IMG/VR virus record: IMGVR_UViG_3300045930_000277
Coordinates: 1-46,413 of that record
Length of the DNA stretch: 46,413 nucleotides
Reading direction: 5' to 3' (one strand)
DNA from: a virus
A program made the translations under genes and the position numbers. This document shows positions 743-45,789 of the stretch, piece after piece (position 1 is the stretch's first letter; every line of letters begins with the position of its first letter). The notes beneath the pieces are model-generated. The model worked only from the letters and a program-made list of their open reading frames with translations. It did not search any database and was not told the DNA's origin.

Positions 743-1588
743 CTAGACCACGGCTACCTTGATGCCCTTCTTGGCCAGCCGTTTCTGCTTCAGGTCCATG
801 CGGTCGAGTTCGTCCGCGTACATCTGGATGAGCCCGCTGTAGGGGCCATACTTGCCCTGGGCATAGCCCACAGACTCACTGATGCCGTCCTGGCTCAGGC
901 TTTCGTTACTCAGTCCCCCGGAGATGTCGCTCCCCTGGCCAGCGGTCGAGAGCACCTGGATGGCCGTTGCCAGGCCGATATAGCGCGCAATATCTGCGTC
1001 TATCTGGTCGTAGCCTATGGTGTAGTCGAGAGACCAGGCATGCGGGATGCAGTCGCGATAGGTCCAGGTGTAAAAGACAGAGTCAAAACCGCCAAAGTTG
1101 CCTTGCAAGACAGAGTTGGTGAGGCTCGGGGTCAGGCGGAGAATCCCCTCCTTGCTGGTGAAGTAAATCCAGTCGGCTGGTACGGTGTACACAAGCTGGT
1201 TGCCGTAAAACAGGCGCACGCGCTCCACACTCACGACGTTGCTATAGGGCAGGGGTATGTAGTAGTGCGTCGAGGTGAGCTGCGCGCGGAAGTGGTGCAG
1301 GCGCTCCCCTAAGAGGTCAAAGTCTTCGCCCTGCACCATGTCCGCGTCCGGGTCGGTCTTGACTACCTGGCGCTCAAAACGGATGCCCAGCTTGCTCTGT
1401 ACGTCGGCAATAATGCCGTTGAGGATGTTCTGCATGGCGATGTCGCCGGGCATACCCTGCCAGGCCACACCCAGGTTGACGCCTACCAGGTAGGTCTGCC
1501 GGATGTACTCAGGGACCATGCTGTCAATGAGCATGCCCTTGAGGTTGTCGGGCTTCGGCTTCAGTCCCATCTGCCAGCCACCGGGCAT
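743..1588 (-). CDS. putative head-tail connector (gp6/gp15-like)
   Basis: 281 aa with GGGAGGG before its ATG. The N-terminal half is helical, the centre contains beta-rich stretches (STHYYIPLPYSNVVSVERV, LVYTVPADWIYF), and the C-terminal helices resemble phage adaptor proteins that dock under the portal after packaging. Position directly after the capsid/HeH pair supports a connector role in virion assembly. Residues 65-140 look like the segment by which such proteins place a beta-barrel next to a helical bundle. No catalytic motif is visible. Confidence in the exact class is moderate. Confidence 0.6.
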   Translation of the reverse strand: MPGGWQMGLKPKPDNLKGMLIDSMVPEYIRQTYLVGVNLGVAWQGMPGDIAMQNILNGIIADVQSKLGIRFERQVVKTDPDADMVQGEDFDLLGERLHHFRAQLTSTHYYIPLPYSNVVSVERVRLFYGNQLVYTVPADWIYFTSKEGILRLTPSLTNSVLQGNFGGFDSVFYTWTYRDCIPHAWSLDYTIGYDQIDADIARYIGLATAIQVLSTAGQGSDISGGLSNESLSQDGISESVGYAQGKYGPYSGLIQMYADELDRMDLKQKRLAKKGIKVAVV

Positions 1589-1591: not shown

Positions 1592-2008
1592 CTACCCTCC
1601 CTGGCTGGCGAGCAAGGCGGTGACCAGCTCGGCCTTGGTCATGCGGCTGGCGCCGGAAATATCGGCGGCGCTGGCCAGTTCGCGGAGTTCGGTCACGGTG
1701 AGGCTTTCGAGGTCCTCCTGCGTGAAGCCAGGCGCCGTCTGGTTGGCGGCGCCCTCCTCTGGTGCGGTCTCGGACGGAGGCACGGCGTCCGGGCTCGCGC
1801 CAGGCTCCTCTGCTTCCCCCTCCTCAGCGGGTGGGGCGGGAGGTGTCTCGCTGGTGTCTTCCACCAGGAAATAGCGCGGGAATTGCCGGGCGTTGGCGGC
1901 CACGTCGGCGTTGTCGGTGATGCAGACACCCTCAGCGTCAAAGGTGACCGTGGTCCCTCCTAGTACGTGGTCCCCAGGGCCAGAGACGCGGCTAATCTTC
2001 CAGGCCAT
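1592..2008 (-). CDS. capsid-module protein with C-terminal HeH/LEM-like domain
   Basis: 138 aa in three parts. Residues 1-52 form a compact domain with GPGDHVLG and VTFDAEG motifs. Residues 53-95 are an acidic Pro/Ala/Glu linker. Residues about 100-136 (LTVTELRELASAADI... MTKAELVTALLA) match the helix-extended-loop-helix (HeH/LEM/SAP) fold common in YqbF-like phage proteins encoded just downstream of capsid genes. HeH folds bind DNA or protein ends. The N-terminal domain reappears at the C terminus of the sigma-like protein at 41873-42988 (19 of 40 aligned residues identical by hand count), an unusual link. Good SD (GGGAGGAG). Confidence 0.6.
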   Translation of the reverse strand: MAWKISRVSGPGDHVLGGTTVTFDAEGVCITDNADVAANARQFPRYFLVEDTSETPPAPPAEEGEAEEPGASPDAVPPSETAPEEGAANQTAPGFTQEDLESLTVTELRELASAADISGASRMTKAELVTALLASQGG

Positions 2009-2023: not shown

Positions 2024-3508
2024 CTAGCGGTCGCCTACATTGATCCACACCACGTTTTGATAGGGGTGTGTGATCTGTGGGGTAAAGGCCGAAAAGAGCA
2101 GGTCACGGCTGGCGGTATGGAGAATATGGGCCAGTTCAAAAATGCCCATCCATGGGCCTAGTGTGACCAGCGACGCGGTATTGCGCGGGCGGGGCGGGTT
2201 CTGCAAGGTGACGCGGCTCATGTCGTTCATGCGCATGGCGTCACTGTTGGCACTGGCGATGTTGAGACCAAAGGCGTCCGTGGTGCCTGGGATGCGTTCA
2301 TTGAGGTCGACAAAATTGAATGCGGTGGTATTGCCGGTGCCTTTGATTTCCCGGATAAACAGCGGCGGGTTGAGGGTGCTGTCTCCCCGGTAGATGCGGT
2401 ACGAGGTGTCTGCGGCGCGCGGGGTGATCGCAATGGTGACCTTCTGGCCAGCGGCGACGGCGATAGGACCCACGCGCGTGGCGGTCGATTCGCCAGCGGC
2501 ATTGAGGGCCGTAATGTCATAGACCACGGCGGCGTCGGCGTCAGCGGCTCCCCACAGAGAGGCAGCGTCAGCGGCGACAACCGGGGCAGCAATGTTGCCA
2601 GCCGGGAGCGGCGCCGGGGCGTTGGTCTCCGCCACAAGTGGGGCAGCGCCCATGTACAGGCTGCTCGTGAGGGTGTTGTCCACCGCAAAGCGCGTAATGC
2701 CGCCAGCGGTGTTCATGCCACCAATGTTTTGCCCCAGAATCACCGCGTCCCCTGGGGTGCGCGGGATCATCAAGCGCTCGGCGGGGTCCAGGCTCTCTTC
2801 CAGAAACTCTGAGACGGACGGCGCCATGTACAGCCAGCGCATAGCCCCAAAGCGCTCCCGTACCTGGCGGGCACGCTTTCTAATTTCTGGCGGGTCGAGC
2901 TTCGCACCACGCAGGTCAATGATGTAATCCGGGTTGATCGTGAACGGCGCAGCACTGGACGGGCTGGTGCCCTCTAGTATCTGCTGGCGCAGTCCCTTAA
3001 AGCGCAGCGTGTGGGTGGTGCTGCCATCGTCGGCGTTGTAGACCGCCACGGCCATCTTGTGGAGCAGGTCCAGCCGGGTGCTGGCCATGTTCTCGTCGAC
3101 CAGGTTGGACTGTCCTAACGCCTGGATCGGCGTCTGGAAGCTGGCCAGCGCGAACACGCTAGAGATGTCACCCATCAGACGGATATTGACGGTCTTGCGT
3201 CTGGACTGGATCGCGGCTTCTGCGGGTAGGCTGTTCTCCCCGTAAAAACCGTCATGCCCACGCGCGCCATAGCCTATGATCTGGTCAAACTCATGCAGCA
3301 CGCTGAATGCCTGGACGTGTGGCAAGTGTTTCAATATGACCAGTTCAACCGGGTCGGTCTCTAGCCACAGTTGGGTGTGGGCTTCTACCTCCAAGTCCTC
3401 TTTGACTAATGGGGATGCGTCCGTGCCCGCGCTTGCTGTCGACGCCAGCGCCTTGAGCAGTTCGTCCTGGAGCATCCCAGAGCTTACCAATGAGTCAAAA
3501 CCTATCAC
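2024..3508 (-). CDS. major capsid protein with inserted beta-sandwich domain
   Basis: 494 aa, encoded after protease and scaffold, as major capsid proteins usually are. The core is residues 1-295 and 416-494, including the capsid-like segment RWLYMAPSVSEFLEESLDP (about 224-242). Between them, residues about 300-415 are Ala/Thr-rich with VVYDITALNAAGESTATR and YRIYRGDS, typical of a fibronectin-III/Ig-like insertion, probably displayed on the capsid surface. A HK97-type fold is assumed from gene order rather than seen directly. It begins at ATG 3508 about 28 nt after the scaffold stop. Confidence 0.75.
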   Translation of the reverse strand: MIGFDSLVSSGMLQDELLKALASTASAGTDASPLVKEDLEVEAHTQLWLETDPVELVILKHLPHVQAFSVLHEFDQIIGYGARGHDGFYGENSLPAEAAIQSRRKTVNIRLMGDISSVFALASFQTPIQALGQSNLVDENMASTRLDLLHKMAVAVYNADDGSTTHTLRFKGLRQQILEGTSPSSAAPFTINPDYIIDLRGAKLDPPEIRKRARQVRERFGAMRWLYMAPSVSEFLEESLDPAERLMIPRTPGDAVILGQNIGGMNTAGGITRFAVDNTLTSSLYMGAAPLVAETNAPAPLPAGNIAAPVVAADAASLWGAADADAAVVYDITALNAAGESTATRVGPIAVAAGQKVTIAITPRAADTSYRIYRGDSTLNPPLFIREIKGTGNTTAFNFVDLNERIPGTTDAFGLNIASANSDAMRMNDMSRVTLQNPPRPRNTASLVTLGPWMGIFELAHILHTASRDLLFSAFTPQITHPYQNVVWINVGDR

Positions 3509-9586: not shown

Positions 9587-12500
9587 CTAGGCGGCGCGGT
9601 GAAACATCTCCCGTTCATCCTGCTGTACAGCGGCGTGATGCAGGTACTGTGCCAGGCCGGTATCGTCGAGCTGGTCCGCTGGCGATTGAAACACCTCCCC
9701 CAGCATGCGCTTGGTTTGCAGGCGCTGCCAGGCTTGCGCATCGTAGGGCGTGCGTGTCCGGGAGATGCTCAGCTCTACCGGGTTGGTCTGCCCTAGCCGG
9801 TGGATGCGTCCGTCTCGCTGCTCCTTGATCATCGCCGTTTGCGGAATGTCATACTGGTGCAGCCATTGTCCGCGTTGCAGGTTCAACCCGGTGGCTCCGG
9901 CGTCAGATGCCACAAGTACATCTATACTTGGGTCGCCCTGCTCAGGCTGGAATGCCTGGCGCACGCGGTTCTTCTCTCCAGCCGTGTGCTGGCCAGTGAG
10001 GGTGCCTACCCGTATCCCAGCGGCCTTCAGCGCGTCATGCAGGTGTTGGACGGCGTCCCGGTTGTGCGCAAAGATGATACCGGGCTTGCCCTGGTCCACG
10101 CGCATTCTGGCATGCTGCACAATGGCCTGGATTTTGGCATTGTCGGCGGGCGGGGTGCTGTGGATCACGCGGGCCAGGGCACTGTCTCTGAGTAGGCCAG
10201 CGTTCTCTTGCAACTGGCGCGCGCGGGCTTCGTGTTGGTCCTCCGGGAGGTGCGCAAAGCTGCTCGGGCTCAGGGCGCGCGCGGCGTCGAGGTCGACCGT
10301 TCCCCGTTGCTGCGCCAGTCGGAGCCGGTCGTAGTGCTCCTGTACGGCGTTGGCGGCGGTGCTCTGGGCGTCGCTCAAGTCGTGCTCTAACACCTTATGA
10401 TGCGCGGGGACACTCGGACTGACGCGCGTGGCGTAAAAATGCGACGCCACTTTGCGCTGTAGGCTTTCCTGTAAGGCAGGGGTGAGTACCGCATACTGCC
10501 GCAGGAAAGCGTCACGGTCGGTGTACTCGCCTGGGTGCAACTTTTCCAGCGTGCTGTAGATTTCGCTCACATCGTTCTTGAGCGGGCTGCCGGTCATAAG
10601 CATGTGATGCGTCGAGTTGTCCGGGTGGGACAGCGCGGTAAAGACGTTGCTCATGAGGCTGTCGTCTTTGCCCATGCGGTCAAGCGTGGTGTGGCCTTCG
10701 TCCAGGACGGTCATAATGCTGGGCGGGATTCCGGCGTTGTCGAGGGCGGCTCTGAGGGCCTGGCGGTGGCCGTCCTTCTGCGCTGAGTCGCGAAAGAAGG
10801 TGGCTACCTCTGCCGGGCTTTTGCCTTGATGCTCGGCTACCAGGTGGACAAGGTCATCTCTCAGGCTCTGATGCGTGGCCACTACCAGCGGCGTCTTGGG
10901 GTCAGCCAGGGCACGCAAGCGGGTGGCACGGTCCGCACCCGGCGTCGCGAAAAATTTGACCTTGCCAGGGTCCGTATAGCGCAATATCTCCCCTGGGAGC
11001 TGGCCCTGTACGGCGCTGGGGACGGCCATAATGGTCTTGTGGATGTCGCCCTTGTTGTGCAGGTGCGTGTGGGTCCCCAGGGCAATGAGGGTCTTGCCAC
11101 TGCCTACGCCAGCATGGATGGCTATCCGTTTGGCGGCGTCCATCATGCGGACGGCGCGCTGCTGCGGGGCATACTGGCCTGACATACTGAGCCCTGGCAT
11201 GAGCTTGACGCCTCGCCCTCCGGTGGCCTTCATCTGCTCCACAATGGGCGCAAAACCCGGATGGTTGATGATTCCCCCTAGCTGATTCTCCGCCAACTTC
11301 CCTAGTGTGGTGCGGTCGGTCTCGGCCTGGCGCGCGGCCTTGGTGACGGTGGGCTGGGGCGAGAAAAAGCCAAGCTGCGACGCGGCGGCCTGCTCCTGTC
11401 TGGCGGTCGCGATAGCGGCGCGCTCCCCCTCTGCAAACTGTCCCCCCGTGCCACGGCGGGCCACAGCGGCATGCGCACTGGCGGTGCTGGCACGCTGTTC
11501 CTTGAGGTGCGCTAGGAGGTCGTCCGGGCTCATGCTCCCGCGTACATGCCCCTGCCACTGTGCCAGGCGTTGCTTGCCCGTCTTCAGCGGCTCGCCGGTG
11601 ATCTGCCCGTATGCGTGGCTGAAGGCATCGGCAAACTTGCCACGGGCACTAGAGAGCAGTGCCTCCCTGGCGCGGCGGATTCCCCCGTGTGCCAGCACGT
11701 AGGCAGCCCACGGGTCCGCTGCGAGCTTGGCGCGGTCGTAGTTCTCGCGGTCTTGCGCGGTGACACCCTTCCCCCCGTTGGCAATTTGCCGGTCAAAGAT
11801 GTCGCGCAAGTGCCCCTTGACCAGGTGCTGCAGGCTCTCCATCCGTTGCTGCTTCTCGGCGTCGTTCTCGCGCTCGTAGGCGTACAGTTGGGCGGCGCGG
11901 GAGATGGGCTCTGCATCGTCGGCGGTGATCATACCAGCCATGGTGGCCAGGTCCTCTATGTTGTCGAGCTTGCCAGCGGCCATGAGGTTGGGCTCTGCTA
12001 CCGCTCCAAAGAGTCCCCCTCCAGCTTCCTCCTCTTCCTTTTTTTGCAGATGGGCCTGGATGGCATGGTAGGCGGCGTCTCCCGTGCCATGCTGGGCCTG
12101 CCACTGGCGCCAGTCTCTGCCAGGGTTGGGCAGGTCCTTGAGCTGCTGGCGGGCTTCTAGGGCTTCATCCTTGCTTATGGGGCTGTGGTGCTTCCAGAAG
12201 TGTTCCTGCAGCATGCTGGTGCTGGCGTGGTCCCCTAGCTCCCCCACCTTCTTAAAGGCCACGCTCCCCTCTGGCACACTGGCCAGGGCGCGGAACACGG
12301 CGCGGCGCGTGTCTTCAGTGTCGGGAATACTCTGGTGATCGAGGGGTGTCATTTCTGGGTGCGCGTCCAGGTAGGGCTTGACCCACTGCGCGGCGCGGCT
12401 GTGCAGGGCTGCCTCTTGCTTCTCGGGCAGGCTCTCTTCGGCGTGTTCGCGCTCAGCGGCGGCCAGGCGGCTTTTCAAGGCGTCGGGGTCGCCCTCAGCG

Positions 12501-14896: not shown

Positions 14897-14906
14897 AGGA
14901 GCGCTC

Positions 14907-20867: not shown

Positions 20868-21155
20868 CTAGTCCTCCATGCCTAGCTGGCGCCGGGCTTC
20901 AGGGGTCATGGTGTTGGCCGGGAGGTCCTCCTCCCTGGGCCGTAAGCTGGCGGTGCCCTGGTCGTGTATCTGGCGTGCCCACTGCTCAAACCACCAGGGC
21001 CGGAAAACGTGATAGCGTTTGCAGGCGTCCAGGATACCGATACACAGCACGGGGGCGCTGCCATCGGCCTGGGCGTCCGCGCGCGCGGCGGGGTTGGCCA
21101 GGCGCGTCAGTTCTTCCTCCAGGCGTAAGCGGGTCCAGGGGCGTTCAAGCTGCAT
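20868..21155 (-). CDS. small helical protein between polyvalent genes
   Basis: 95 aa from ATG 21155 (GAGAGG upstream), overlapping the helicase gene by 11 bp; its stop directly abuts the 1986-aa gene, so the three are translationally coupled. It contains VLCIGILDACKRYHVFRPWWFEQWARQIH, a Trp/Cys-rich amphipathic stretch at about 38-66, and an acidic C terminus. Likely an accessory of the polyvalent set (chaperone or linker), but this is only context. Confidence 0.5.
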   Translation of the reverse strand: MQLERPWTRLRLEEELTRLANPAARADAQADGSAPVLCIGILDACKRYHVFRPWWFEQWARQIHDQGTASLRPREEDLPANTMTPEARRQLGMED

Positions 21156-24105
21156 GGCGCATGCCTCTCTTCTCGCTGTCGGTGGCGCCAACGAGTGCTA
21201 AAAAGTCCTCGTAGCTCATCTCGGGATCATCGGCGGGGCTCTCCCCGTGCACAATCGCGCGCTGGGCGCCAGCCTTGCGCTTGACCAGGTTGTCCTTGTG
21301 TTGCTCCACAGAGGTGTTGGTCATAAGGCGCATCATCACCACGTCAGCCGTCTGGCCAGGCCGGTAGATGCGGCCTTCTCGTTGCTCTAAGATGTCCGGG
21401 CGCCAGGGCGTGTCCATGTGCAAGAGCATCTGCGAGTTGTGCTGCAAGTTCAACCCTTCGGCGGCGGCGTCCGACGCTATCAGGACCTTGTGCTTGCCGG
21501 TATTGATCCCGTCAACAATGTCCTGGATTTTCTCAGGCGTCATGCCACCCTTGATGGTGGCAATGTCGCCGTTCGTCAAGCCTTCCTTCTGGAGTTCCCG
21601 CTGCAGGATGTCGATCACGGGCAGGTAGTGGGAATAGATCACGCACGCCTTGGTGTGTCCGGCGCCAAAGTGGTCCTTGACCATCTGCACGGCTTCTGCC
21701 ACCTTGGGCGCTTCCCCCTTGTAGGACGGGTCGACCAGCTCCGGGGTGATGGCCACTTGCTCCATGCGCAAGATGTTGGTCAGGATGTTGGCGCGCTCCT
21801 CCCGTGTCATCTGGCCAGGGTTGTTCACACGCTTGAGGGCTTCCAGGGCGCCAGTCCGCGCGGCTTCGTAGTAGACGGACTGCGCCGGGTGCAGGTCGAG
21901 CGTCTGCCGGGCGTTGCGCCGCTCGGGCATGGGAATCTGCACGTCCGGGCTCTGCCAGGTCCTGGCCAGGATATAGGGCGCTACCACACTGCGGGTATAG
22001 GCCAGGTTCTGGTAGCCGGTTATGCGAGTGATCATGCGGCCTTGTGCATAGACGCGGTCTGTGCGGCAATGCTGGCGCAAGAATTGGGCACGGGAGCCAA
22101 AGAGGGTTGGCTGCAGCCGTTGCATGAGCTGGTAGAGGTCCTCCGGGCTGTTGGGGATCGGGGTAGCGCTGAGGTCCCAGGTATACGGCGCGCTGAAAAA
22201 CTCCTTGCTGTTCTTGGCGGTCTGGCTGCTTTTGCCCTTGAGGCGGACGGCTTCGTCATTGATCACAATGTCAAAGCCTGAGCCATGGAGCTTCTCCGGT
22301 TCGCGCTGGATAAGCCCGTAGCCTGCTACCACAAAGTCCGCCGTTTCCGCGTCGCGGTACTGCCGGGCACGCTCAGCCGGGGTGCCGTCGACCAGTACCA
22401 CCTTTTTGCCAGGGAATAACGCCTTGATGTCCCGTATCGTGCCAATTTTGCGGGCGCTGGGGACCACAAACAGGCAGCGTTTGGCCTTGCCCTCTTCCTG
22501 GAGCTTGGCGGCGGCGGTCACAGCCGTGTTGGTTTTGCCCAGCGCGGTAGCAAAGGCGAGAATGCCTGCCTTGGCGCGCATGAGCCACGCCACGCCTTGC
22601 TTCTGGTGCGGGTAGAGTTCCCCTCCGGTGAGCACAGCCGGATTAAAGCCAGCGGGCATTTGAAAATTGCTGATGTCCTGGTCATGGCTGAGGGCGTCGA
22701 GTTCGTTAGTCTTGGCCTGTGCAGCGGCCTTGAGCTGGCCCTCCCGGTCACGCCACGCCTGGGCGAACATGGCGCGCTGGTGCGGGTTGGCATTGAGCCA
22801 GTTGTCTAGCTCCTCCTGTGCCCGGTCGACAATGCGTAACTGCTTGGGGCTCAGGCGGTCGCGTGACTTCCCCAGATTGGACGGAAGGAAGGTGCCACGG
22901 GTCCAGTTGTCGAGCGTGTCCACCTGGGCGAGCTGCTCCGGGGTGAGCATCAAAATGTCCTGGGTAAAACCACGGTCTGCTTCACTGAGGAGGGCGTTGG
23001 CTTCGGCCTGGGCCTGCTCGCGGGCTACAGCGCGCTCCTGGTGTTCCTGCCAGGCGGCCATGGCCTTCTGGGTCATGTCGACGTTGGCCAGGTCGATCAC
23101 CTCCTGGAAGCGCTCCATGGGGACGCTCCAGCTTTTAGTGATCGGGTTCCAGCGGGCGCCTCTGACAGTCTTGACCAGGGCCACAAGGCGCGGGTCATAC
23201 TTAAAGTGCAGCCCGATATGGCCAGGGAAGGCGGTCACGGTCGACGCGCTCATGTCGGCTTTGTCGTAGCTCTGCCGCTCATGCTCCGGGATAAAGACGG
23301 CGTGCCCGTCAATCCAGCGCCACACACCAGGGCCGTCCTCCGGGGTGCTCGTCGTTGTGGTGGTCGCAGCCTGGCGCCGGGGCCGGTCGTCTGGGCGGTC
23401 CATCGGTGGGGGCACGGGGATGGCGTCAAAGTCAATGCCGTTGCGGGCCAGTTGCCCCTTGTACTTGCGCAGTCGTTCCCAGGCGGCGCGGCGTTCGTCG
23501 TCGGTCCAGTCGCGGTCGTTCCCAGACATGGCCAGCATTTTGCCCCACATGGCATCGGGGCCTGCAAAGCCCACCTCGTCTTTTGTGCGGGCGCCATCAC
23601 ACTGGCCAGCCAGGCTTTCAATGCAGTCCATAAGGGTGGGGTGGGGCTTGGCATCCGGGTGCACAGGCGCCACACGCTGCACGTCCTGGGTGGTCGGTGG
23701 CCGTGGCTCGGGCGCGGGCTCAGCGGCGGGCGGGGTGAGCACCAGGGCCGGGGCTGGGGGCTTCGGCACCACGGGTTCCACGCGCGGCGGGATCACGGGC
23801 CGGGGCGCGGGCTCGGGTTGTGCTTCCGGCTTCGGCGCCGGGCGGAGCAGGTCGAACAGGGACTGCTGGCGCATGGGCCGGGCAGGCTCCAGCGCGGGGC
23901 GTGGGGGCGCGGGGGTGGGGGGCTCCTCTTTGGGGGCGGGCCTGGGGTGGAAAAGCGTCAGTTGTGGCTGGGCCACTACGGAGGTGTGATAGGGCTCCAC
24001 CCACACCGTTTCCCCGCTGGGCAGGTGGCGCCGGTGGCCACGCACGTAGGCTTTGAGCAGGTCGGCGGTGCTGCGCAGTCGGTTGAGGGTGAGCACAAAA
24101 CGCAT
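21145..24105 (-). CDS. SNF2-family helicase polyvalent-type protein with HARP-like domain
   Basis: 986 aa. A short N-terminal KAYVRGHRRHLPSGETVWV motif resembles the KGHWR motifs of the 1986-aa protein. A Pro/Glu-rich linker follows (about 60-150). Residues about 288-343 (HIGLHFKYDPRLVALVKTV, GARWNPITKSWSVP) look like a HARP-type DNA-annealing domain. The SNF2 core has LYPHQKQGVAWL (Q motif), Walker A ALGKT near 521-525 (the first Gly of GxGKT is replaced), DEAV near 617-620 in place of DEXH, and QREGRIYRPGQT near 907-918. SMARCAL1-like annealing of unwound DNA is a plausible activity. SD GAGGAG before ATG 24105, within the dyad GGAGCGCTCC. Confidence 0.85.
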   Translation of the reverse strand: MRFVLTLNRLRSTADLLKAYVRGHRRHLPSGETVWVEPYHTSVVAQPQLTLFHPRPAPKEEPPTPAPPRPALEPARPMRQQSLFDLLRPAPKPEAQPEPAPRPVIPPRVEPVVPKPPAPALVLTPPAAEPAPEPRPPTTQDVQRVAPVHPDAKPHPTLMDCIESLAGQCDGARTKDEVGFAGPDAMWGKMLAMSGNDRDWTDDERRAAWERLRKYKGQLARNGIDFDAIPVPPPMDRPDDRPRRQAATTTTTSTPEDGPGVWRWIDGHAVFIPEHERQSYDKADMSASTVTAFPGHIGLHFKYDPRLVALVKTVRGARWNPITKSWSVPMERFQEVIDLANVDMTQKAMAAWQEHQERAVAREQAQAEANALLSEADRGFTQDILMLTPEQLAQVDTLDNWTRGTFLPSNLGKSRDRLSPKQLRIVDRAQEELDNWLNANPHQRAMFAQAWRDREGQLKAAAQAKTNELDALSHDQDISNFQMPAGFNPAVLTGGELYPHQKQGVAWLMRAKAGILAFATALGKTNTAVTAAAKLQEEGKAKRCLFVVPSARKIGTIRDIKALFPGKKVVLVDGTPAERARQYRDAETADFVVAGYGLIQREPEKLHGSGFDIVINDEAVRLKGKSSQTAKNSKEFFSAPYTWDLSATPIPNSPEDLYQLMQRLQPTLFGSRAQFLRQHCRTDRVYAQGRMITRITGYQNLAYTRSVVAPYILARTWQSPDVQIPMPERRNARQTLDLHPAQSVYYEAARTGALEALKRVNNPGQMTREERANILTNILRMEQVAITPELVDPSYKGEAPKVAEAVQMVKDHFGAGHTKACVIYSHYLPVIDILQRELQKEGLTNGDIATIKGGMTPEKIQDIVDGINTGKHKVLIASDAAAEGLNLQHNSQMLLHMDTPWRPDILEQREGRIYRPGQTADVVMMRLMTNTSVEQHKDNLVKRKAGAQRAIVHGESPADDPEMSYEDFLALVGATDSEKRGMRHAA

Positions 24106-28755: not shown

Positions 28756-29478
28756 ATGAAAAAAACGACAGAAGTACGGACGTGTAAATGCTGCGGACAA
28801 GCGTTCCTTTTTAAGTTCAGGCCATGTTATGCGCACACAACGAGAGGCACGTATTGTTCGCTCAAATGCTTTGGCAAGGCACATACCAAACTGCCAGACG
28901 ATATTGACGCCATGCTTGTTCAGCGCTTTCAGAACGGGGACCGTTGGGCGCAAATTGCCCGTGATCTGCATTGTTCTGCACGGCTTATACGTCTTCGTGC
29001 CAAGCAATTGGGGCTCCAAGGCTATCTCGGTCATCGTGGCGTAACCAATGGGATGTATGGACGTACACATACGCCGGAAACCGTGGAAAAACTCCGTCAA
29101 GCCTCTCAACGCCAATTCAGTGCACCAGGCGCGCGTGAAACTCAGGCGTTGTTGACGATTAAGCAAATTCAAGACGGCAGAACAGGCAAAGCCTTGAACA
29201 AACTGGAAACCCGTGTAGCCCGCATGTTTGATGCCGCTGGTCTCTCCTATCAACAGCAATACGCGCTTGGCCGTTTTGTGTTCGATTTCTATCTGCCTGC
29301 CACGCATACCCTTGTGGAAGTGCATGGCACGTTTTGGCATGCTGATCCGCGCAAATACGAGCCGGACGCCTTGAGCCCAATTCAGCAACGGAATGTGGCG
29401 AATGATGCCAAAAAGGCCGCGCATGCGATGGCGTGTGGGTATGCGCTTACCGTGCTCTGGGAAGCGGATATGCCCTAG
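28756..29478 (+). CDS. Vsr-like (PD-D/EXK) free-standing homing endonuclease
   Basis: 240 aa from ATG 28756 with AGAAGGTGG upstream. N-terminal CxxC pairs (CKCCGQ, CSLKC), an HTH-like middle (WAQIARDLHCSARLIRLR), a NUMOD3-like NGMYGRTHTPETVEKL, then a Vsr-type core: FVFDFYLPATHTLVEVHGTFWH (about 192-213) with Asp194 and Glu206, then KK...GYALTVLWEAD. This matches the I-Bth0305I/EDxHD-like group. Base use is clearly lower in GC than its neighbours and it opposes the operon direction, signs of recent arrival. It overlaps the radical SAM stop by 4 bp. Confidence 0.75.
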   Translation: MKKTTEVRTCKCCGQAFLFKFRPCYAHTTRGTYCSLKCFGKAHTKLPDDIDAMLVQRFQNGDRWAQIARDLHCSARLIRLRAKQLGLQGYLGHRGVTNGMYGRTHTPETVEKLRQASQRQFSAPGARETQALLTIKQIQDGRTGKALNKLETRVARMFDAAGLSYQQQYALGRFVFDFYLPATHTLVEVHGTFWHADPRKYEPDALSPIQQRNVANDAKKAAHAMACGYALTVLWEADMP

Positions 29479-30320
29479 TGCCACGCGGTCACCTCTCTGC
29501 CCTGGCGGGCGTGAATGATGGCCGGGCGTGCCCAGCGACGCTGGAAGGTCGACCAGGCCGGGCCGGGGGCATGCTTCTCTTGCTTCGGGTGCTCCGGTTT
29601 CCACAGCATGGCCATAGGGGTGAAGCCTAGCCCACTGATCGCGCTGAGACGTTCCTCAGCCAGTACAAAGGTGTCCTTGGGGTAGCCTATGAGCACGTAA
29701 CAGCGTAGCCGGTGAGAGGCACTGGTAAATCCTGCCTCTAGCAGCCTGTGGGCCGCATGGGCGAGTGTGTCAAAGGCGTCGCCGGGATCGTAGGCAAAGA
29801 AGCACGTCGGGCGCGGGTGCAGACTGGCGAGCAAGTCAACCTGGTAGTCCTGGAGTGCCAGTGCCTCTAGTCCCCCCGTAAACTCCACGCGGCGCGGTTG
29901 CCTGGCCAACATGGCGAACACAGCGCGGACGTGGTCCTCCGGGCAGGCTAGGAGGTTATCGTCCAGGATGTTCCAGCCCTCCTGAATAGGGAGCAACCGG
30001 GGCACAGGGTCCCTACGCCAGACGCTGCAAAACCAGCAACGCCTTGGACAGCCACGGCTGGTGAAGGTATAGCCCGTCTTGATGTACCTCCCTGGGACAA
30101 AGTCATGGCCGGGATCGCCATAGGCCACACCCCCCACGTCGACCGGGGCCACATGGCGCCAGCTCTGCGCTAAGGCTTCGGCATAGGGCTTGTCCCAGGT
30201 AAAGGCCACACTGATATGCACGCGGTCCCCCTGGGCGAACAGGTCCGGCTCTCCCACGTAGGCCAGGGGGTCGTCTGGGGTCGCCTTGGTACGCCGGGGG
30301 AACACGCGGAGCAGTCTCAC
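29475..30320 (-). CDS. radical SAM-like protein in the head operon
   Basis: 281 aa. The most likely start is GTG 30320: GGAGGAGG lies 8 nt upstream, and it overlaps the portal stop (GTGA). TSRGCPRRCWFCSV (about 94-107) is the CxxxCxxC 4Fe-4S radical-SAM motif, followed by LPIQEGWNILDDNLL and VEFTGGLEALALQ, with YVLIGYP near 215. The partial TIM-barrel length fits a compact radical SAM enzyme. The substrate is unknown. It lacks the hallmarks of queE-type enzymes I would expect for 7-deazaguanine synthesis, but a nucleic-acid modification role is possible given the adjacent methyltransferase. Confidence 0.7.
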   Translation of the reverse strand: MRLLRVFPRRTKATPDDPLAYVGEPDLFAQGDRVHISVAFTWDKPYAEALAQSWRHVAPVDVGGVAYGDPGHDFVPGRYIKTGYTFTSRGCPRRCWFCSVWRRDPVPRLLPIQEGWNILDDNLLACPEDHVRAVFAMLARQPRRVEFTGGLEALALQDYQVDLLASLHPRPTCFFAYDPGDAFDTLAHAAHRLLEAGFTSASHRLRCYVLIGYPKDTFVLAEERLSAISGLGFTPMAMLWKPEHPKQEKHAPGPAWSTFQRRWARPAIIHARQGREVTAWH

Positions 30321-32122
30321 AGGCGTACCTCCTCCCACGCCAGGGCCTTGCCCATGGGCTCCCCGTCGTCGTCCTCTTCGTCGTCGTCCTGGGCCTGCTG
30401 GGGCGGTCCCTGGGCCTGCTGGCCAGGGGCTCCCTGCTGCTGTTGCTCTTGCTTCAGCCTGGCCAGTACAGCCGGGGGGACACCCGGATAGCCATCGTCC
30501 TCCCCAGACTCTCCGGGTGGCCCTTGCCCTCCTGGTCCCTCCATCCCAGGGGGCATGCCGCTGGCGCCGATGCCAGCGGCCTGGAAAATGAGCGGGTTCA
30601 GGGGGACTTCACTCCAGGGTTGCTTGTACGGCTTGTCCCCGCGTAGCTGGCGGATTTCGTCGACGCTGCGGAAGTGCTGCACGTCCTGGGTCTCTAGCTG
30701 CATCTCGGCGTTGCGGTCTTCGGCGTCGAGCCCGGACCAGGTAAAGGTGAGGTCCGTGTCAATCAAGCGCACCAGGGCGGCCAGGTTCTCTCCAAAGAAT
30801 GCCCTATTGATCTGGAAGCCCTCTTCTTCGCTCGCCTCTATTTCCTTGTCGCGGGTGTGCTCAAAGAGGGCCGTGCCCTGGTGCGTCATGCCCTGGCAAT
30901 AGATGCGGCTCGGGTCCTTGCGGTAGATGGCACAGACCAGAGAAATGAGGCTGTTCATCCATTGCATAAATTCCATGTCTTTATGGTTCTCTTTGAGCTT
31001 GACCACTTGCATGGTCTGGTCGGTCGGGAGCTGGACCAGCGGGACCCTCCACGCGCCTTTCAATCCTGAAAAATTCTCGCGTAAGGTCTCCTGGAGCGTG
31101 ACAAAGGAGTCATCCTCTATCTCGCCGGAGATACCTAAAATCACCTCAATGGGGTTGCCCACAGTAAAATAGTTTCTATTGTAATGAAAGGCATGCAACC
31201 AACTGATGATACCCTCTAGGGCCTTTTCAACATAGCTTGCCGGGAAGATGTCCCTAATATCGCTGCTCGGGTCAAACTCCCAGACCAATAACTCACCAGG
31301 GGCAAATGTCCCTACCAGCTCTCCCCTGATCACGCAGACATACTCGCTGTCCCTGATCGGCATGCCGGTCTCTTGCTCTAACAGCTTGGCGCCTACTTCG
31401 TAGGCGTCCGGGCGCTGCGGGTTGACGGAGTCATTCAGACCAATAAAGCGCTGGATCACGCGGTAGGTGGGCAGGATCGTGGCGCCGTCAACACAGCGAA
31501 ATTGCACCACGCGGTTGCGCCGGTCGCGTATGAGTTCGATCACCACGCGGTTAATCGTCAGGTGATCACGCAAGGCGCGTGCGATGAAGCCCGGAAAGGT
31601 TGCCTCATGGATGGGGTGGGGCGTCTGGAAGATGCGGCGCACGCGGTCACAGCGGGCCTGAATCTCGGGGGTGTCGGTGTCGCGTGTCTCGTCGTGCGCG
31701 TCCAGGTGCTCTATGCGCCAGCCTAAGTCCTGGGGGGTCTTGGCATAGGCGGTGAGCTGCAACAGCTCATGCAAGCAACAGGAGTGTATCGCCTGGATGA
31801 GCATGCACCGCTTCACGGTCAACCTGAGCAATTCAAACGACACCCCACCGCCATACTGAGACCACAGGCGGCCTTTCTGGTACGCACCAAAGGTGTCCGG
31901 TATCTGGTACAGGTCGAGCCGGGGAATCTGGGACTGGTAGACGGGCTTGACCAGGTCGAGCACGCCTGCAGGCATCTGGCCTTGCTTGGCCTTGGCTAGC
32001 GCGCGCTCGCGCTGGGGCACGGGATACCATACCTGGGGGCTCTGAGCCTGCTTCGCCTCGCTGAGGGCCTTCTCTAGCTGGCGGATACGCTGGCGCTGGC
32101 GCCGGGACTGTGTGCGGGCCAT
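30317..32122 (-). CDS. portal protein
   Basis: 601 aa. A charged helical start (SRRQRQRIRQLEKAL) is followed by a typical portal body: GELLVWEFDPSSDIRDIFPASYVEKALEGI (about 287-316), LVQLPTDQTMQVVKL, IYRKDPSRIYCQG and a helical C-terminal ENLAALVRLIDTDL, ending with a Gly/Pro and acidic tail (DDDEEDDDGEP). It forms the dodecameric portal ring through which terminase packages DNA. It lies second in the head operon, 3 nt after the virion protein. SD AGGGGACC 8 nt before ATG 32122. Confidence 0.85.
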   Translation of the reverse strand: MARTQSRRQRQRIRQLEKALSEAKQAQSPQVWYPVPQRERALAKAKQGQMPAGVLDLVKPVYQSQIPRLDLYQIPDTFGAYQKGRLWSQYGGGVSFELLRLTVKRCMLIQAIHSCCLHELLQLTAYAKTPQDLGWRIEHLDAHDETRDTDTPEIQARCDRVRRIFQTPHPIHEATFPGFIARALRDHLTINRVVIELIRDRRNRVVQFRCVDGATILPTYRVIQRFIGLNDSVNPQRPDAYEVGAKLLEQETGMPIRDSEYVCVIRGELVGTFAPGELLVWEFDPSSDIRDIFPASYVEKALEGIISWLHAFHYNRNYFTVGNPIEVILGISGEIEDDSFVTLQETLRENFSGLKGAWRVPLVQLPTDQTMQVVKLKENHKDMEFMQWMNSLISLVCAIYRKDPSRIYCQGMTHQGTALFEHTRDKEIEASEEEGFQINRAFFGENLAALVRLIDTDLTFTWSGLDAEDRNAEMQLETQDVQHFRSVDEIRQLRGDKPYKQPWSEVPLNPLIFQAAGIGASGMPPGMEGPGGQGPPGESGEDDGYPGVPPAVLARLKQEQQQQGAPGQQAQGPPQQAQDDDEEDDDGEPMGKALAWEEVRL

Positions 32123-34414: not shown

Positions 34415-34633
34415 CTAACATCCCAGGCGCCTACGCCCTGGGGTGAGGGTGATGCCTTCATGGGCAAGGTCTGAGACGCGGCGGACTTCGTCGCTGCCAT
34501 CGTCCCAGACAATGCGGAAATGATGCCACGGGCCATAGAGGGTGATGCCTTCGGGGTTGGTGTCGACGTAGCCCGTGATACCATCATCCCGGCGCACGTT
34601 CTGGCCTACGCGGATTTGTGTTCTGATCGCCAT
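34415..34633 (-). CDS. small SH3-like phage protein, paralog of next gene
   Basis: 72 aa. RVGQNVRRDDGITGYVDTNP and GITLYGPWHHFRIVWDDG form a small beta barrel. The next gene (34642-35049) contains the same layout (RVGQRLVRWDGQRGYVNLNS, GVRVYGPGELFTIHWQDE), so the two are paralogs by tandem duplication. Function unknown; such barrels often bind protein or nucleic acid. Confidence 0.55.
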   Translation of the reverse strand: MAIRTQIRVGQNVRRDDGITGYVDTNPEGITLYGPWHHFRIVWDDGSDEVRRVSDLAHEGITLTPGRRRLGC

Positions 34634-34641
34634 CGCTCCCC

Positions 34642-35049
34642 CTAGCGTGCCCAGCGCATGACGCCTTTTCCCCAGGTGATCCCTAACTCTTCCAGGGTTT
34701 CCAGCATGGCGGTCTCGTCGCCGTCAAAATTCCCCTCTTCATCCTGCCAGTGGATGGTGAACAGTTCGCCAGGGCCATAGACGCGGACGCCCTGACTGTT
34801 GAGGTTGACGTAGCCGCGCTGGCCGTCCCAGCGGACCAGGCGCTGGCCTACCCGGATGAGTTTCCGCATGCTGGGACGTTTGGCGCCCTTGGCGCGCGCG
34901 TGCCCGGCGTCGACCAGGCGTGCCCGCTCCAGCGCTACCAGGCGCATAACAGCTTGCAGGTGTGTCTCGCCGGTCTGGTCCACAATGGTGTTGAGGTGCT
35001 CTAGGGTGTCGCCGGTGATCGTGAGGGTGATCATCTCCGTTGTGGTCAT
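34642..35049 (-). CDS. CopG/MetJ-like N-terminal plus SH3-like domain protein
   Basis: 135 aa from ATG 35049 (AAGGGA upstream), overlapping the preceding stop by 4 nt (ATGA). Residues 1-50 (MITLTITGDTLEHLNTIVD... HLQAVMRLVALERAR) look like a short ribbon-helix-helix domain. Residues about 66-130 repeat the barrel of the next gene. A DNA-binding regulator is possible. Confidence 0.45.
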   Translation of the reverse strand: MTTTEMITLTITGDTLEHLNTIVDQTGETHLQAVMRLVALERARLVDAGHARAKGAKRPSMRKLIRVGQRLVRWDGQRGYVNLNSQGVRVYGPGELFTIHWQDEEGNFDGDETAMLETLEELGITWGKGVMRWAR

Positions 35050-35342
35050 ACATCCCTTTCTGCGGGGCATCCGTCCACGTCGCACGTAATACGTTGGCCT
35101 GTGCCACAGCGCGGGCAGGCTTCTATACAGCAATGATGGACATGGAACTGCCCAACAAGTACGCCACAATCACGGCATGGCGCTGGCAAGACGGCACTAG
35201 GGCGCGCTTCGGCTCCATAGGGAATGCGGTCATAGACGTGCCCATGTATGACAAGAGTCGTCTGGTGCTGTGCTGCACGAATCTTTGCAGGCCAGTCTGG
35301 GCTCATCTGTACTCCCTGATAGGTGATAAATTGAGAGGTCAT
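35046..35342 (-). CDS. small zinc-ribbon phage protein (CxxCGxxxGQxHxxxC type)
   Basis: 98 aa. YDRIPYGAEA, then CRDCGVLVGQFHVHHCCIEACPRCG: CxxCG, H and C pairs in a spacing found in many small phage/prophage proteins. Metal binding is likely; the biological role is unknown. Overlaps 4 nt with the following gene. Confidence 0.55.
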   Translation of the reverse strand: MTSQFITYQGVQMSPDWPAKIRAAQHQTTLVIHGHVYDRIPYGAEARPSAVLPAPCRDCGVLVGQFHVHHCCIEACPRCGTGQRITCDVDGCPAERDV

Positions 35343-41704: not shown

Positions 41705-41876
41705 CGTCTGGGCTCTCCTGGAGTTCGGTGAGCATTTCCTCTATGCAGTCACGGATTTCTCCTAGCTTCTTCGTTTGTGCCGGGGTGAAGGCGTCCTTGT
41801 ACTCGGCTAGGAGTTCATCCAGCGGGCCACACATTTCCTCTAGCAGGTCAGCGGCATACTCCTGGTCATCGGTCAT
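41697..41876 (-). CDS. small acidic helical protein
   Basis: 59 aa from ATG 41876 with AAAGGAG. Highly acidic (TDDQEYAADLLEEMCGP...KLGEIRDCIEEMLTELQESPDDV), a possible anti-regulator or DNA-mimic by charge. It overlaps the sigma-like gene by 4 bp, hence translationally coupled. No homology asserted. Confidence 0.5.
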   Translation of the reverse strand: MTDDQEYAADLLEEMCGPLDELLAEYKDAFTPAQTKKLGEIRDCIEEMLTELQESPDDV

Positions 41877-42988
41877 CGTTGCTTGCTCCTTTCCCGTGTT
41901 GCGGGCAAAAAAGGGGTGCCGTGAATCTTCCACCGTATGAGACAGCGCAGCGTGCCCGGTAGCACGGTAAAGATCGGCGGCGGGGGCTGTGGGCGTCGAC
42001 GCACGCGGAACATCTCCGGGAACAGGAGGGCCTGGGTCATGGTGGCCGGGGACGTGGTCCAGCCGGTGCCCTCCTGGTCAAAGGTGACCACTTCAAACCC
42101 TAGTACATGCTCCCCTGGTCCCAGCGCGCGCTGTAGCTCCCAGCCGGGCACGTCGGTGGCCTGCAGCACCAGGTCAGCGGGCTGCGTGATCGGCCAGGGG
42201 GTGCGGTGCCAGGTGTAGACCTTGGGCAGCGGCGCCGGGGGTGGCTTCGGGCGTGGCGCTGGCGCATCCCTCTCAGGCAGGTAGGCCATGCGTCCCCAGG
42301 TGGGACGGATGCCGTCGAGGTCCTCCAGGTACGGCCTGAGTCTGGCACGGTGCGCGGGGTGGCTGAGCTTGCGGAGCGCGGCGTCTCGCATCTGGCGGAT
42401 ACGTTCGTAGCTCTTGCCCTGGGTTTTGGCCAGCGCTTCCAGGGTCTGCGGTGGCCCTTCCAGCCCAAAATACCCCTCAAGCACGGTGCGCTGGTTGGGG
42501 GTGAGGGTGTCTAGCTCCCCCCGCACAACGCGCTGCAGCTCCCCCTCCTGGTACGCGGTGGCCGGGTCCGGGCTCGGCTCCGGGTACCACGCCTGGCGGA
42601 TCGCGCGCGGGGTGGCGCGGCTGGTCGCGCGGTGCGTATTCCAGAGCGCCTGGAAAAACACAGGCGGAAAAAGATCGTCGATGGCCCAGCCGGTGAGTTC
42701 CATCAGGCGGCGCTGGATGGTGGGCGAGGTGGGGATGTGCTGCAAGCAGACCATCTTCGTCCCATTGGCATAGGTGCACCCTAAAAAGTCGCACAGGTCA
42801 CGCTGAGACCAGCCACGGGCCTGCATGGCATCCCACAGGGGGCGGTGGCGCAAGCGCCCATGCGCATAGACCACCAGGCGGCGCAGCAAGGCGGACGGGT
42901 TCGGGGCGTAGGCGTCGACCGCGTCCACGGCGCGCGTCACAGCGGCATGCCACGGGTTGAGCGGGTGGAGCACTTCCACGAGAGCCAC
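41873..42988 (-). CDS. sigma-70 region 4 protein fused to HTH and capsid-module domain
   Basis: 371 aa, GTG start at 42988 with AGGAC about 10 nt upstream. Residues about 50-110 (WDAMQARGWSQRDLCDFLGC, TIQRRLMELTGWAIDDLFPP) are an XRE-like HTH. Residues 157-222 (ELDTLTPNQRTVLEGYFGLE, LEALAKTQGKSYERIRQM, ALRKLSHP) reproduce sigma-70 region 4 with the -35-binding HTH and RIRQ motif. A Pro-rich linker leads to residues 287-330, a domain that is 19/40 identical with the N terminus of the HeH protein at 1592-2008. Region 2 is absent, so it cannot be a full sigma factor; a regulator that redirects host RNA polymerase is plausible. Confidence 0.75.
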   Translation of the reverse strand: MALVEVLHPLNPWHAAVTRAVDAVDAYAPNPSALLRRLVVYAHGRLRHRPLWDAMQARGWSQRDLCDFLGCTYANGTKMVCLQHIPTSPTIQRRLMELTGWAIDDLFPPVFFQALWNTHRATSRATPRAIRQAWYPEPSPDPATAYQEGELQRVVRGELDTLTPNQRTVLEGYFGLEGPPQTLEALAKTQGKSYERIRQMRDAALRKLSHPAHRARLRPYLEDLDGIRPTWGRMAYLPERDAPAPRPKPPPAPLPKVYTWHRTPWPITQPADLVLQATDVPGWELQRALGPGEHVLGFEVVTFDQEGTGWTTSPATMTQALLFPEMFRVRRRPQPPPPIFTVLPGTLRCLIRWKIHGTPFLPATRERSKQR

Positions 42989-43017: not shown

Positions 43018-43200
43018 TCAGGCGGTGTGCGGGCATGCGGGGTCTTCCTCCATGGCCAGCGGTCCGGCGCGTTGCGTCGCACCACAGCCAGCGCAGCACA
43101 TCATCAGCCAGACGCCCTCTGCGTCGCGGCTCCCGGTCAGGAGCACCAGCGGGCTGCGACAGGCGACACACACGACAACAAAGCGGGGGACTTCGCTCAT
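43018..43200 (-). CDS. small zinc-ribbon-like protein downstream of terminase
   Basis: 60 aa from ATG 43200, overlapping the terminase C-part stop by 4 nt. CVACRS and CCAGCG form CxxC pairs around VWLMMC, a single zinc ribbon. Translational coupling with the terminase nuclease fits its weak SD. No function known. Confidence 0.45.
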   Translation of the reverse strand: MSEVPRFVVVCVACRSPLVLLTGSRDAEGVWLMMCCAGCGATQRAGPLAMEEDPACPHTA

Positions 43201-43709
43201 ATGAGCACCACCCGGCCAGCCCGCATGCCTAGAAATAGCTCCGTAAAGCCCCAGACCAGGGCGTCCAGGCGCGACGGGGAGCGGGCGCCACTGGTCGGGT
43301 CCCAATTACAGAGTTCATCCTCCAACGCGGGGAACGGCCTGGTATGGAAGATGCGGCCTTTCTCGTACAGGGCTACAATGGGCTCCGCTCTGGTCTGCTT
43401 GCCCCTGGACGCATGCACGGCCTTGTAGCTGATTTCCTTGTCCACCATACGCAGGACGGCTTCGACCATGTCCCCCCCGTTGTTGACTTCGGCTACCACC
43501 CGGTCCGCTTGCAGGTCCCAATAGGCATCACTCACCCGGCGTGCCCAGCGCTCCGGGCTAAAGCGTCCGCTGAGGTCCTCCAGCACATAGCCGGTGTGGT
43601 CCAGGCTGCGGGCACACACCACAATCCCCACCTCATCACTGCTCCTGGTCGAGGTGACAGCCGGGTCGACCGCTATCACAATGCGGGCGGCGTCCTTGTA
43701 GGTGGGCAT
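43197..43709 (-). CDS. terL: large terminase, C-terminal nuclease domain (split gene)
   Basis: 170 aa from ATG 43709 with TTGGAG 9 nt upstream. RIVIAVDPAVTS (Asp15), VVAEVNNGGD (Glu74), a KQTRAEPIVALYEKGRI segment and SRLDALVWGFTELFL (Asp149) give the three acidic residues of the RNase-H-like terminase nuclease. It has no ATPase; that half is encoded 0.8 kb upstream with an HNH gene between. Together they total 445 aa, the size of an ordinary TerL, with little missing, so a functional two-piece motor is likely. The longer frame to 43877 overlaps the HNH and is not used. Confidence 0.85.
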   Translation of the reverse strand: MPTYKDAARIVIAVDPAVTSTRSSDEVGIVVCARSLDHTGYVLEDLSGRFSPERWARRVSDAYWDLQADRVVAEVNNGGDMVEAVLRMVDKEISYKAVHASRGKQTRAEPIVALYEKGRIFHTRPFPALEDELCNWDPTSGARSPSRLDALVWGFTELFLGMRAGRVVLI

Positions 43710-43714
43710 GGGCC

Positions 43715-44452
43715 TTACTCCAAGAGAGAGAGTTGCGCGCTGTCGGGCTGCCTTGTGTCCGCGTGACCATCCTGGAAATATGGACTGCGCGCCAGGTGGC
43801 CGTATTGGGCAATTATCTGGCGTGCCCATGTAAGCTGGTCCATAACTCGCTGGCCTGGGGGTTGCGATTTGAGCCACAACTCCAGGTTTTCCGGGCGATT
43901 GTCCAGGCGGTTCCCGTTCTTGTGGTGCACCACTTCCTCTGAGAGCAACGCACGCCCTAGCATCTCCGCCATAACAAGGCGATGCTCTAGCATCCAGCCC
44001 GTTTTTGTGGCTCCTGGATGCCCTGGCTTATAGACACGGCGGTACCCTTGCCGGGAGATGGTCCCACTACCTGTCTCTGCTATGAGCCGTATTGTAGGAT
44101 CGCCATGCTTTTTAAGGCGTTGCTGATGCTTACTACAATAGCCTTCATAGCGTTGCAAATTCTTACAGCCGCGCACGGTGCAGGGTTGGTCTTTATACCA
44201 GCGGTGACGATAGAATGGGTCCCCATGCAGGGCACGCCGTTGGTAATGCAGACCACAGAGCCCCTTGCCCACATATGGCCGGTTACACCCAGGGATGCAA
44301 CAGGTTGTCGCATGCTCGGTATTGCGTAAGGGCTCCCCACCTTCAGGATCGCCATGCACTAGGAAGCGGTAATGATGGCGGCGACACCAGCCATACCGAT
44401 AGACAGGACGGTCACACTGCGCGATTGTACATGCTATACTGCTGAGAGCCAT
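43715..44452 (-). CDS. HNH homing endonuclease splitting the large terminase gene
   Basis: 245 aa from ATG 44452 behind GGAGG. N-terminal half: three CxxxxC...GxCxxHxxR...HGDP zinc repeats (about 8-125). HNH core: [38 protein letters not shown] (about 168-205). It lies between the ATPase and nuclease halves of terL, 5 nt before the nuclease start. It is in none of the terL frames and has no intein ends. GC is lower than its neighbours. It should cut terminase genes that lack it. Two hairpins precede it. Confidence 0.8.
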
Positions 44453-44454
44453 GG

Positions 44455-44473
44455 TAGCTACCTCCAATAGCTA
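44455..44473 (-). promoter_or_regulatory. hairpin exposing or hiding the HNH ribosome-binding site
   Basis: TAGCTA arms (self-complementary, 44455-44460 and 44468-44473) put GGAGG in a 7-nt loop. The start codon follows 2 nt after the stem. Confidence 0.5.
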
Positions 44474-44540: not shown

Positions 44541-45368
44541 TCAAGAAAGACCTTTATATATAATGAGTTCGCGACGCCAAAGCGAGGCCGGGTTGTCTTC
44601 CAAATCCTCCGCTAAAATCTCTTGCCTATAGGCCAGGTCCGTCATGTCACTGGCCAGGTCCTCCAGGGCTTCTGCCGAAATGTGCGGATTGTCCTGGCTG
44701 GCGAAGTGAAACACCTCCCACCGTCCAGTGGTATCCTTGGCGGCGTCGCGGTAGAGCTTCGTTGCGTGCTGCTTGTCGCGGGCTTTGGACACACTCGACG
44801 TGCGGAAGCTCGGCGGGGTGAACACAAAGACGGCATCGCCGTTCTTGTCGGCCATCATGGGAGCCCCTACCGTGCCCCAGGCTTCTTCGGCCATGAGCTG
44901 GTACTCATCCAGGATCAACGTCTCTGCGTAGTCCCCTCTCAGGGTGTCGGCATTCCAGGCCGTCTTTGCCCGTATGCGGTTCTCGGTGCCGGTCAGCTCT
45001 ATAATGTGCCGGGTCTCATTCTTGTACAAGATGCCCGCGTCGAGGGGCACGCTGAGGGCCAGCTTGCACTCAAACCAGAAGCGGTCCATCTGTTCCTGAG
45101 TGGGCACGGCATAAAGAATGCGGCGGCCTGCCAGGAACGCCCTCACCGCCAGCAAGGCCATGCCTACCGTCTTTCCACCACGCCTCCCTGCTCGGATCAC
45201 CTTGCGCTTGCTGGGTGACTCTAGAAAGCGCACTTGCTGGGCATGGGGAATGCGACAGCTCGCTGCAGCCTGATCACGCCAGGCGCTGATAGTGGCGGCC
45301 TGCTCCTGGCGCTGGCGTTCACGCCAGCGGAGCAGCGCCTCCGCTTGGATGGAGACCAGCGTTGACAT
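44541..45368 (-). CDS. terL: large terminase, N-terminal ATPase domain (split gene)
   Basis: 275 aa from ATG 45368, overlapping terS by 50 bp. AGRRGGKT (residues 60-67) is the Walker A; LILDE (151-155) is the Walker B plus catalytic Glu; FVFTPPSF (181-188) is the coupling motif. The frame ends IIYKGLS soon after RRELI, exactly where intact terminases run into the nuclease domain; that domain follows 0.8 kb on. The last 5-7 codons look like read-in from inserted sequence. Confidence 0.85.
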   Translation of the reverse strand: MSTLVSIQAEALLRWRERQRQEQAATISAWRDQAAASCRIPHAQQVRFLESPSKRKVIRAGRRGGKTVGMALLAVRAFLAGRRILYAVPTQEQMDRFWFECKLALSVPLDAGILYKNETRHIIELTGTENRIRAKTAWNADTLRGDYAETLILDEYQLMAEEAWGTVGAPMMADKNGDAVFVFTPPSFRTSSVSKARDKQHATKLYRDAAKDTTGRWEVFHFASQDNPHISAEALEDLASDMTDLAYRQEILAEDLEDNPASLWRRELIIYKGLS

Positions 45369-45789
45369 AGCTCAACACCTTGGCGGGCGGTTCCCCGCTG
45401 GCGATGCGGCGGAGTTGGTCATCCGTCAAATGGTCCCACGGGATACTCAGCTCCACGCGCGATTTGGGCGGCGCCAGTTCGGGGAGCCTGCGCTCTAAGA
45501 TACTCAGGGCCAGCGCGGCGTCTCCCCCTTGCACAGCGGTGAGCACGGTCCCCCGCGCGGCGTCGACCAGGTCCGAGAGCCAGCGCGCGGCGGCTTCGTC
45601 ACGGGCCTGGGTCCAGGTGGCCGTCTCGTTTTCCCAATTCCGTATGGTGCGCACGTTGCGGTTGACTGCCGCTGCGACGGCTTTCTGACTGTGGCCTAGC
45701 ATGCGCAGATAGGCAGCAATGACACGCTTCTCCCAGAATTTATACCGGGGTAGCGGGTTGGAAAAAGCGGCGGCGTCCGGGTCACTCAT
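45319..45789 (-). CDS. terS: small terminase subunit
   Basis: 156 aa. N-terminal HTH (VIAAYLRMLGHSQKAVAAAVNRNVRTIRNWEN, about 23-54) for binding the packaging site, a helical middle (LVDAARGTVLTAVQGGDAALALSILERRL) for oligomerisation, and a C terminus that contacts TerL. It overlaps terL by 50 nt and the previous gene by 8 nt. Recognised by position as well as layout. Confidence 0.7.
   Translation of the reverse strand: MSDPDAAAFSNPLPRYKFWEKRVIAAYLRMLGHSQKAVAAAVNRNVRTIRNWENETATWTQARDEAAARWLSDLVDAARGTVLTAVQGGDAALALSILERRLPELAPPKSRVELSIPWDHLTDDQLRRIASGEPPAKVLSYVNAGLHPSGGAAPLA

Follow-up and report, generated by a model that had tools for sequence, protein, structure and literature searches.

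A sigma-like protein of a phage that is, by its sequence, SPO1-like, with a major capsid protein (MCP) of the SPO1/A511 kind, ends in a domain related to the N-terminal domain of the small HeH protein, which is encoded directly after the MCP gene (the MCP+1 position). This domain copy suggests that the sigma-like protein could be tethered to assembling phage heads.

The window, meaning the whole 46,413-nucleotide stretch analysed (IMG/VR record IMGVR_UViG_3300045930_000277), carries most of its genes on the minus strand, and the features discussed here are listed in Table 1. All of it corresponds to IMGVR_UViG_3300045947_000193 (66.4 kb) in reverse orientation at 99.3% identity, and a second overlapping contig carries sequence beyond that record; the sigma-like protein is encoded at 100% identity in an overlapping contig. 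We found no close relatives of the phage in the viral or bacterial genome collections searched, and its MCP had no match among genome contigs.

Table 1. Coordinates of the features under discussion, in window positions.
Feature	Position	Strand	Basis
Sigma-like protein, 371 aa, GTG start	41873..42988	-	ORF, Pfam, AF2
Possible Cro/C1-type HTH, residues about 50-110	42659..42841	-	Weak Pfam HTH_26
Sigma-70 region 4, SigA/RpoD type, residues 159-209	42362..42514	-	Pfam, PDB phmmer
Pro-rich predicted disordered linker, residues 223-282	42143..42322	-	Sequence; pLDDT mostly <50
C-terminal domain copy, YqbF/DUF7349/gpFI-type, residues 283-334	41987..42142	-	BLASTP, AF2, BFVD
HeH protein, 138 aa, MCP+1 gene	1592..2008	-	Rho_N E=9.6e-10; fold matches 2hjq, 2out
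HeH N-terminal domain, residues 3-54	1847..2002	-	BLASTP, AF2, DUF7349 profile
HeH/Rho_N domain, residues 99-136	1601..1714	-	PF07498; Foldseek match to Rho N-terminal domain
Major capsid protein, SPO1/A511 type	2024..3508	-	phrog_752 E=5.7e-37; tblastn
phrog_772 gene, next after HeH gene	743..1588	-	phrog_772 E=5.8e-19; tblastn
Terminase large subunit, C-terminal (nuclease) part	43197..43877	-	Terminase_6C E=2.7e-12
Terminase large subunit, N-terminal (ATPase) part	44541..45368	-	Terminase_6N E=4e-4, just under curated cut-off
Candidate terminase small subunit, HTH protein	45319..45789	-	Weak phrog_2538 E=0.018; precedes TerL

Two copies of one domain

In a single BLASTP comparison the C-terminal domain of the sigma-like protein aligns without gaps to the N-terminal domain of the HeH protein, with 21 of 52 residues identical and 31 different (44.7 bits, E=1e-10), and the same pair is recovered with E=1.7e-7 in an all-against-all search of the 628 ORFs of the window and the two overlapping IMG/VR contigs of the phage. 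The initial annotation had drawn attention to this likeness, and both open reading frames that it named are present, as are the three motifs it found in common (GPGxHVLG, VTFDxEG and FPxxFxV). Its hand count of 19 identities in 40 becomes 19 of 41 over HeH residues 9-49, right to within one column. Its residue numbers are slightly out of register: with the offset of 280, sigma-like residues 287-330 have as partners HeH residues 7-50 and not 9-49.

The likeness extends to the DNA, as had also been noted: the window contains GTACTAGG exactly twice, once within each domain on the minus strand, and GGTCACCTTTGAC is present in both domain-coding stretches. Identical codons are used at 16 of the 21 identical residues, against 9.7 expected from codon usage (p=0.004), and the rare codon pair GTA CTA is among them. 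Because codons are shared beyond this expectation, the two domains are most likely paralogues and not the product of convergence. A chance match is ruled out by both protein searches and by the codon sharing. We can likewise reject a generic motif: DNA of the GPG[DE]HVLG type occurs in 36 viral stretches and FDx[DE]G-15-FPxxF in 40, and outside this phage the other motif set is absent from them.

AlphaFold gave both domains a confident fold of five strands and one helix in the order four strands, helix, strand, with a pLDDT of about 92 for the HeH domain and of 90-94 for the sigma-like domain (strands 283-287, 292-296, 299-303 and 308-311, helix 314-321, strand 327-331). The alignment input was the two domain copies alone, and the models are not independent because each run contained the other copy. 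When the HeH model was compared with the PDB by Foldseek, the top two matches were YqbF of B. subtilis (2hjq; prob 0.95, E=0.03) and, weakly, HI1506 of a Mu-like prophage (2out; prob 0.20, E=0.3), at 12-20% sequence identity; no solved gpFI structure is among the 50 fold matches listed for this model, and PDB sequence searches with the domain gave no match. Both copies are thus predicted to have the YqbF/HI1506 fold, and not to be a common motif set in unrelated folds. Several proteins in BFVD are matched by both models, among them a DUF7349 protein of Bacillus phage CP-51 and a protein annotated as a virion component. Popovic et al. in 2012 reportedly found that two prophage proteins share the fold of lambda gpFI, and we take these two to be YqbF and HI1506. 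Shared domain, common ancestry, predicted fold and genomic positions are all computational results.

Pattern searches recovered no relatives of the domain in viral contigs outside this phage or in GTDB genomes, and tblastn of the domain against phages gave chance-level matches alone at E=10. Among viral contigs the whole sigma-like protein is found in this phage alone, and its tblastn matches in phages are essentially confined to region 4. No fusion of a sigma protein to a YqbF-type domain, and so no relatives with a conserved fusion, came from the phage, viral and genome collections searched, where pattern scans detect close relatives alone. The components are all of known kinds, and their combination was not recovered elsewhere at the sensitivity of these searches.

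The gene after the major capsid gene

The MCP gene of the window, whose tblastn matches are MCPs of Herelleviridae and related phages, is followed directly by the HeH gene and then by the phrog_772 gene, which encodes a homologue of SPO1 gp6.3 (labelled 'tail fiber' or adaptor in databases) with its best tblastn matches in Thermus phages Lalka8/27a, of hot-spring origin. In SPO1 (gp6.1-6.2-6.3) and A511 (cps-gp87-gp88) the gene at this position encodes a small protein matching DUF7349, and a small MCP+1 protein is also present in EFDG1, Fi4S2, phiAGATE, Yucatan, Moonbeam, EFLK1 and Twillingate. In Lalka8 the slot is taken by a 'yqbF-like' gene, whose product has a Rho_N-like stretch at its C-terminus, behind an inserted TnpB gene; the Lalka8 record (L097 2298-4468) annotates a CRISPR repeat region together with the TnpB-family gene between the MCP and yqbF-like genes. 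Mu gp35, the HI1506 homologue, directly follows the MCP gene T, and the lambda packaging chaperone gene FI directly follows the MCP gene E. One further contig, G003, has an MCP and a portal in common with the window phage (about 26%), and its MCP+1 protein resembles the HeH type by eye; neither query matched there.

A511 gp87 and SPO1 gp6.2 are like the HeH protein in their MCP+1 position, small N-terminal domain and charged linker, and gp87 also has a C-terminal Rho_N-like stretch. The HeH domain matches a DUF7349-type profile that we built from 12 members, though PF24040 (DUF7349) itself has no match to window proteins at E<=10. When 95 proteins from this phage were scored against our profile, the HeH domain came first, with 31 columns in register and a score reached by none of 100 shuffles, and the sigma-like protein came fourth, the match lying within its C-terminal domain and the score being reached by one of 100 shuffles. 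The hhalign probability for HeH against DUF7349 is 2.8% with 5 members and 10-23% with 12; these values are low, and membership in DUF7349 is therefore supported but unproven.

Lambda gpFI is a packaging chaperone that binds the capsid lattice; DNA binding by it has been proposed, and it helps the DNA-terminase complex to reach the prohead (PMC7889075, PMC4493119). From its position, from HI1506/Mu gp35 and from the literature, we take the HeH protein to be most probably a packaging chaperone of the gpFI type, made up of a presumed head-docking domain, an acidic linker and a putative nucleic-acid-binding HeH domain. Like FI, its gene directly follows the MCP gene, and the architecture is of a similar kind. 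The initial annotation had called it a virion protein; the gene does belong to the capsid module, but the product is better described as gpFI/YqbF-type and packaging-chaperone-like. The comparison suggests that DUF7349 proteins and the products of other MCP+1 genes in SPO1-like phages, all annotated as hypothetical, may likewise act as gpFI-type packaging chaperones. A511 gp87 has been listed as a putative head-tail connector (PMC5723416), and we found no proteomic evidence in the literature for gp87 or gp6.2 in virions.

The proposed origin of the shared domain in the capsid module is supported, the MCP+1 slot being its conserved home. Since this holds across distant phages, the domain of the sigma-like protein would most simply be a derived copy of the HeH domain.

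The sigma-like protein and its possible roles

From N- to C-terminus the sigma-like protein consists of a low-confidence N-terminus (135 residues with no firm domain match), region 4, a proline-rich linker, the YqbF/DUF7349-like domain and a 36-residue tail, and its ORF is coding-like along its length (GC3 0.77-0.87 as far as residue 335). The earlier assignment of sigma region 4 is borne out by Pfam Sigma70_r4 (PF04545; 36.4 bits, cut-off 24.1, E=3.7e-9) and by the top PDB phmmer match, to region 4 of RpoD/SigA (E=1.3e-9). Region 4 is close to that of SigA and may reach about residue 222; ERIRQ and ALRKLxHP are retained, as are the -35 helix residues equivalent to sigma70 E585, R588 and Q589, and in the PDB alignment the equivalents of R584 and K593 are replaced. 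Nearer the N-terminus there is a hint of a helix-turn-helix (Pfam HTH_26, E=0.2, from a fragment), where AlphaFold confidence is low.

The protein resembles sigma-70 factors and phage sigma-4 regulators in this SigA-type region. Unlike sigma-70 factors it has no detectable region 2, since Pfam and PHROGs matched region 4 only; its PDB matches are confined to residues about 137-226. Without a detected region 2, the protein does not count as a complete sigma factor of the ordinary kind. The C-terminal gpFI/YqbF-type domain is absent from every other sigma protein searched. A search near the gene gave no consensus promoter, and no late promoter was identified.

The HeH and sigma-like proteins are alike in having a putative nucleic-acid-binding part, a flexible linker and a presumed head-docking domain. 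We tentatively favour a sigma-4 type DNA-binding regulator that proheads could tether or titrate. Region 4, from which we infer an action in transcription, would contact -35 DNA and/or the beta-flap of RNA polymerase at late genes. By analogy with gpFI the C-terminal domain would dock on the capsid-protein lattice of the prohead, beside or in competition with the HeH protein. The regulator would be titrated onto proheads, or kept near them, as their number rises, so that late expression would be tied to head assembly; this feedback by titration is speculative, and the sigma-like copy, with 31 of 52 positions changed, may have lost its docking surface. Lambda gpFI differs from the sigma-like protein in that the latter adds a sigma region 4 and is encoded elsewhere in the genome, and neither YqbF (2hjq) nor HI1506/Mu gp35 (2out) has a sigma domain fused to it.

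Directly upstream of the sigma-like gene lies the nuclease part of the terminase large subunit (TerL), and a possible, if somewhat improbable, reading, a close rival of the first, is that the protein is a packaging factor with no role in transcription. Its region 4 helix-turn-helix, with any further one nearer the N-terminus, would bind a pac/cos-like site of the phage and its C-terminal domain would dock DNA or terminase on the prohead, making it a second, site-specific gpFI-like chaperone produced together with the terminase. Lambda gpFI, which helps DNA and terminase to the prohead, likewise has its DNA-binding part first, then a linker and then the head-binding domain. However, region 4 is unusually SigA-like, including parts unneeded for mere DNA binding, the chaperone slot is already occupied by the HeH protein, and a candidate small subunit already precedes TerL. 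For this last reason we do not regard the sigma-like protein as TerS; it matched no terminase profile in Pfam or PHROGs, and the weak TerS match sits with that candidate instead. TerL itself is split, an HNH endonuclease gene (HNH_3, 43715-44467) lying between its two parts, of which the N-terminal one was read together with the adjoining C-terminal part. The interruption resembles a mobile intron or insertion, and no Rfam family scored above threshold in the region.

Re-use of the domain for something other than capsid binding, such as dimerisation or contact with the HeH protein or RNA polymerase, in an otherwise ordinary sigma-4 late regulator, is unlikely, though nearly as probable as the packaging role. 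Small domains are frequently re-used, these copies share only 40% identity, and the YqbF fold is not tied to capsids, as the PriA/YqbF domain superfamily (d.344.1) occurs in most eukaryotic proteomes according to a survey (PMC5671483). Against this, nearly the whole core motif set is among the conserved positions, the copy has its relative within the capsid module of the same phage, and the BFVD matches include DUF7349 and the virion-annotated protein. A role as an anti-sigma or host-takeover factor is very improbable. The lone region 4 would then compete against host sigma at the beta-flap, and the C-terminal domain would either be incidental to this or lead to co-packaging, so that the protein is delivered with the DNA at infection. 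The lack of a detected region 2 fits, and the weak DarB-like matches of a large helicase-like protein hint that internal proteins may be carried by the phage, but direct evidence is absent and region 4 retains the DNA-contact equivalents of E585, R588 and Q589.

The regulator that we favour, with its presumed head-docking domain, would make a coupling of assembly and transcription testable by simple binding experiments. It is distinctly unlikely that it acts as an assembly-coupled transcription factor, sensing the level of free proheads through its chaperone-derived domain and switching late transcription in step with head building or filling; if so, it would be a phage counterpart of the link between hook completion and late flagellar transcription. 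In T4 late transcription is coupled to replication, the split sigma functions gp55 and gp33 acting via the sliding clamp. The coupling partner proposed here is the capsid and not the clamp, and the likeness is one of function, without demonstrated homology. We know of no phage in which late transcription has been shown to be coupled to head assembly.

Other features of the window

The portal gene is located at 30317-32122, and beside it is a gene for a radical SAM domain protein (29475-30338; phrog_9298, E=7e-17). Three adjacent very large genes, of 1779, 1986 and 986 aa, occupy 9587-24105; helicase matches were found in the first and third, and the third also matches, more weakly, methyltransferase and DarB-like antirestriction families. 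A stretch of ~1.8 kb at 6482-8274 is of low complexity, with strong strand bias, overlapping Pro/Arg-rich frames and degenerate repeats, and is probably not ordinary coding sequence. An adjacent pair of small genes at 34415-35169 are tandem paralogues (E=4e-10).
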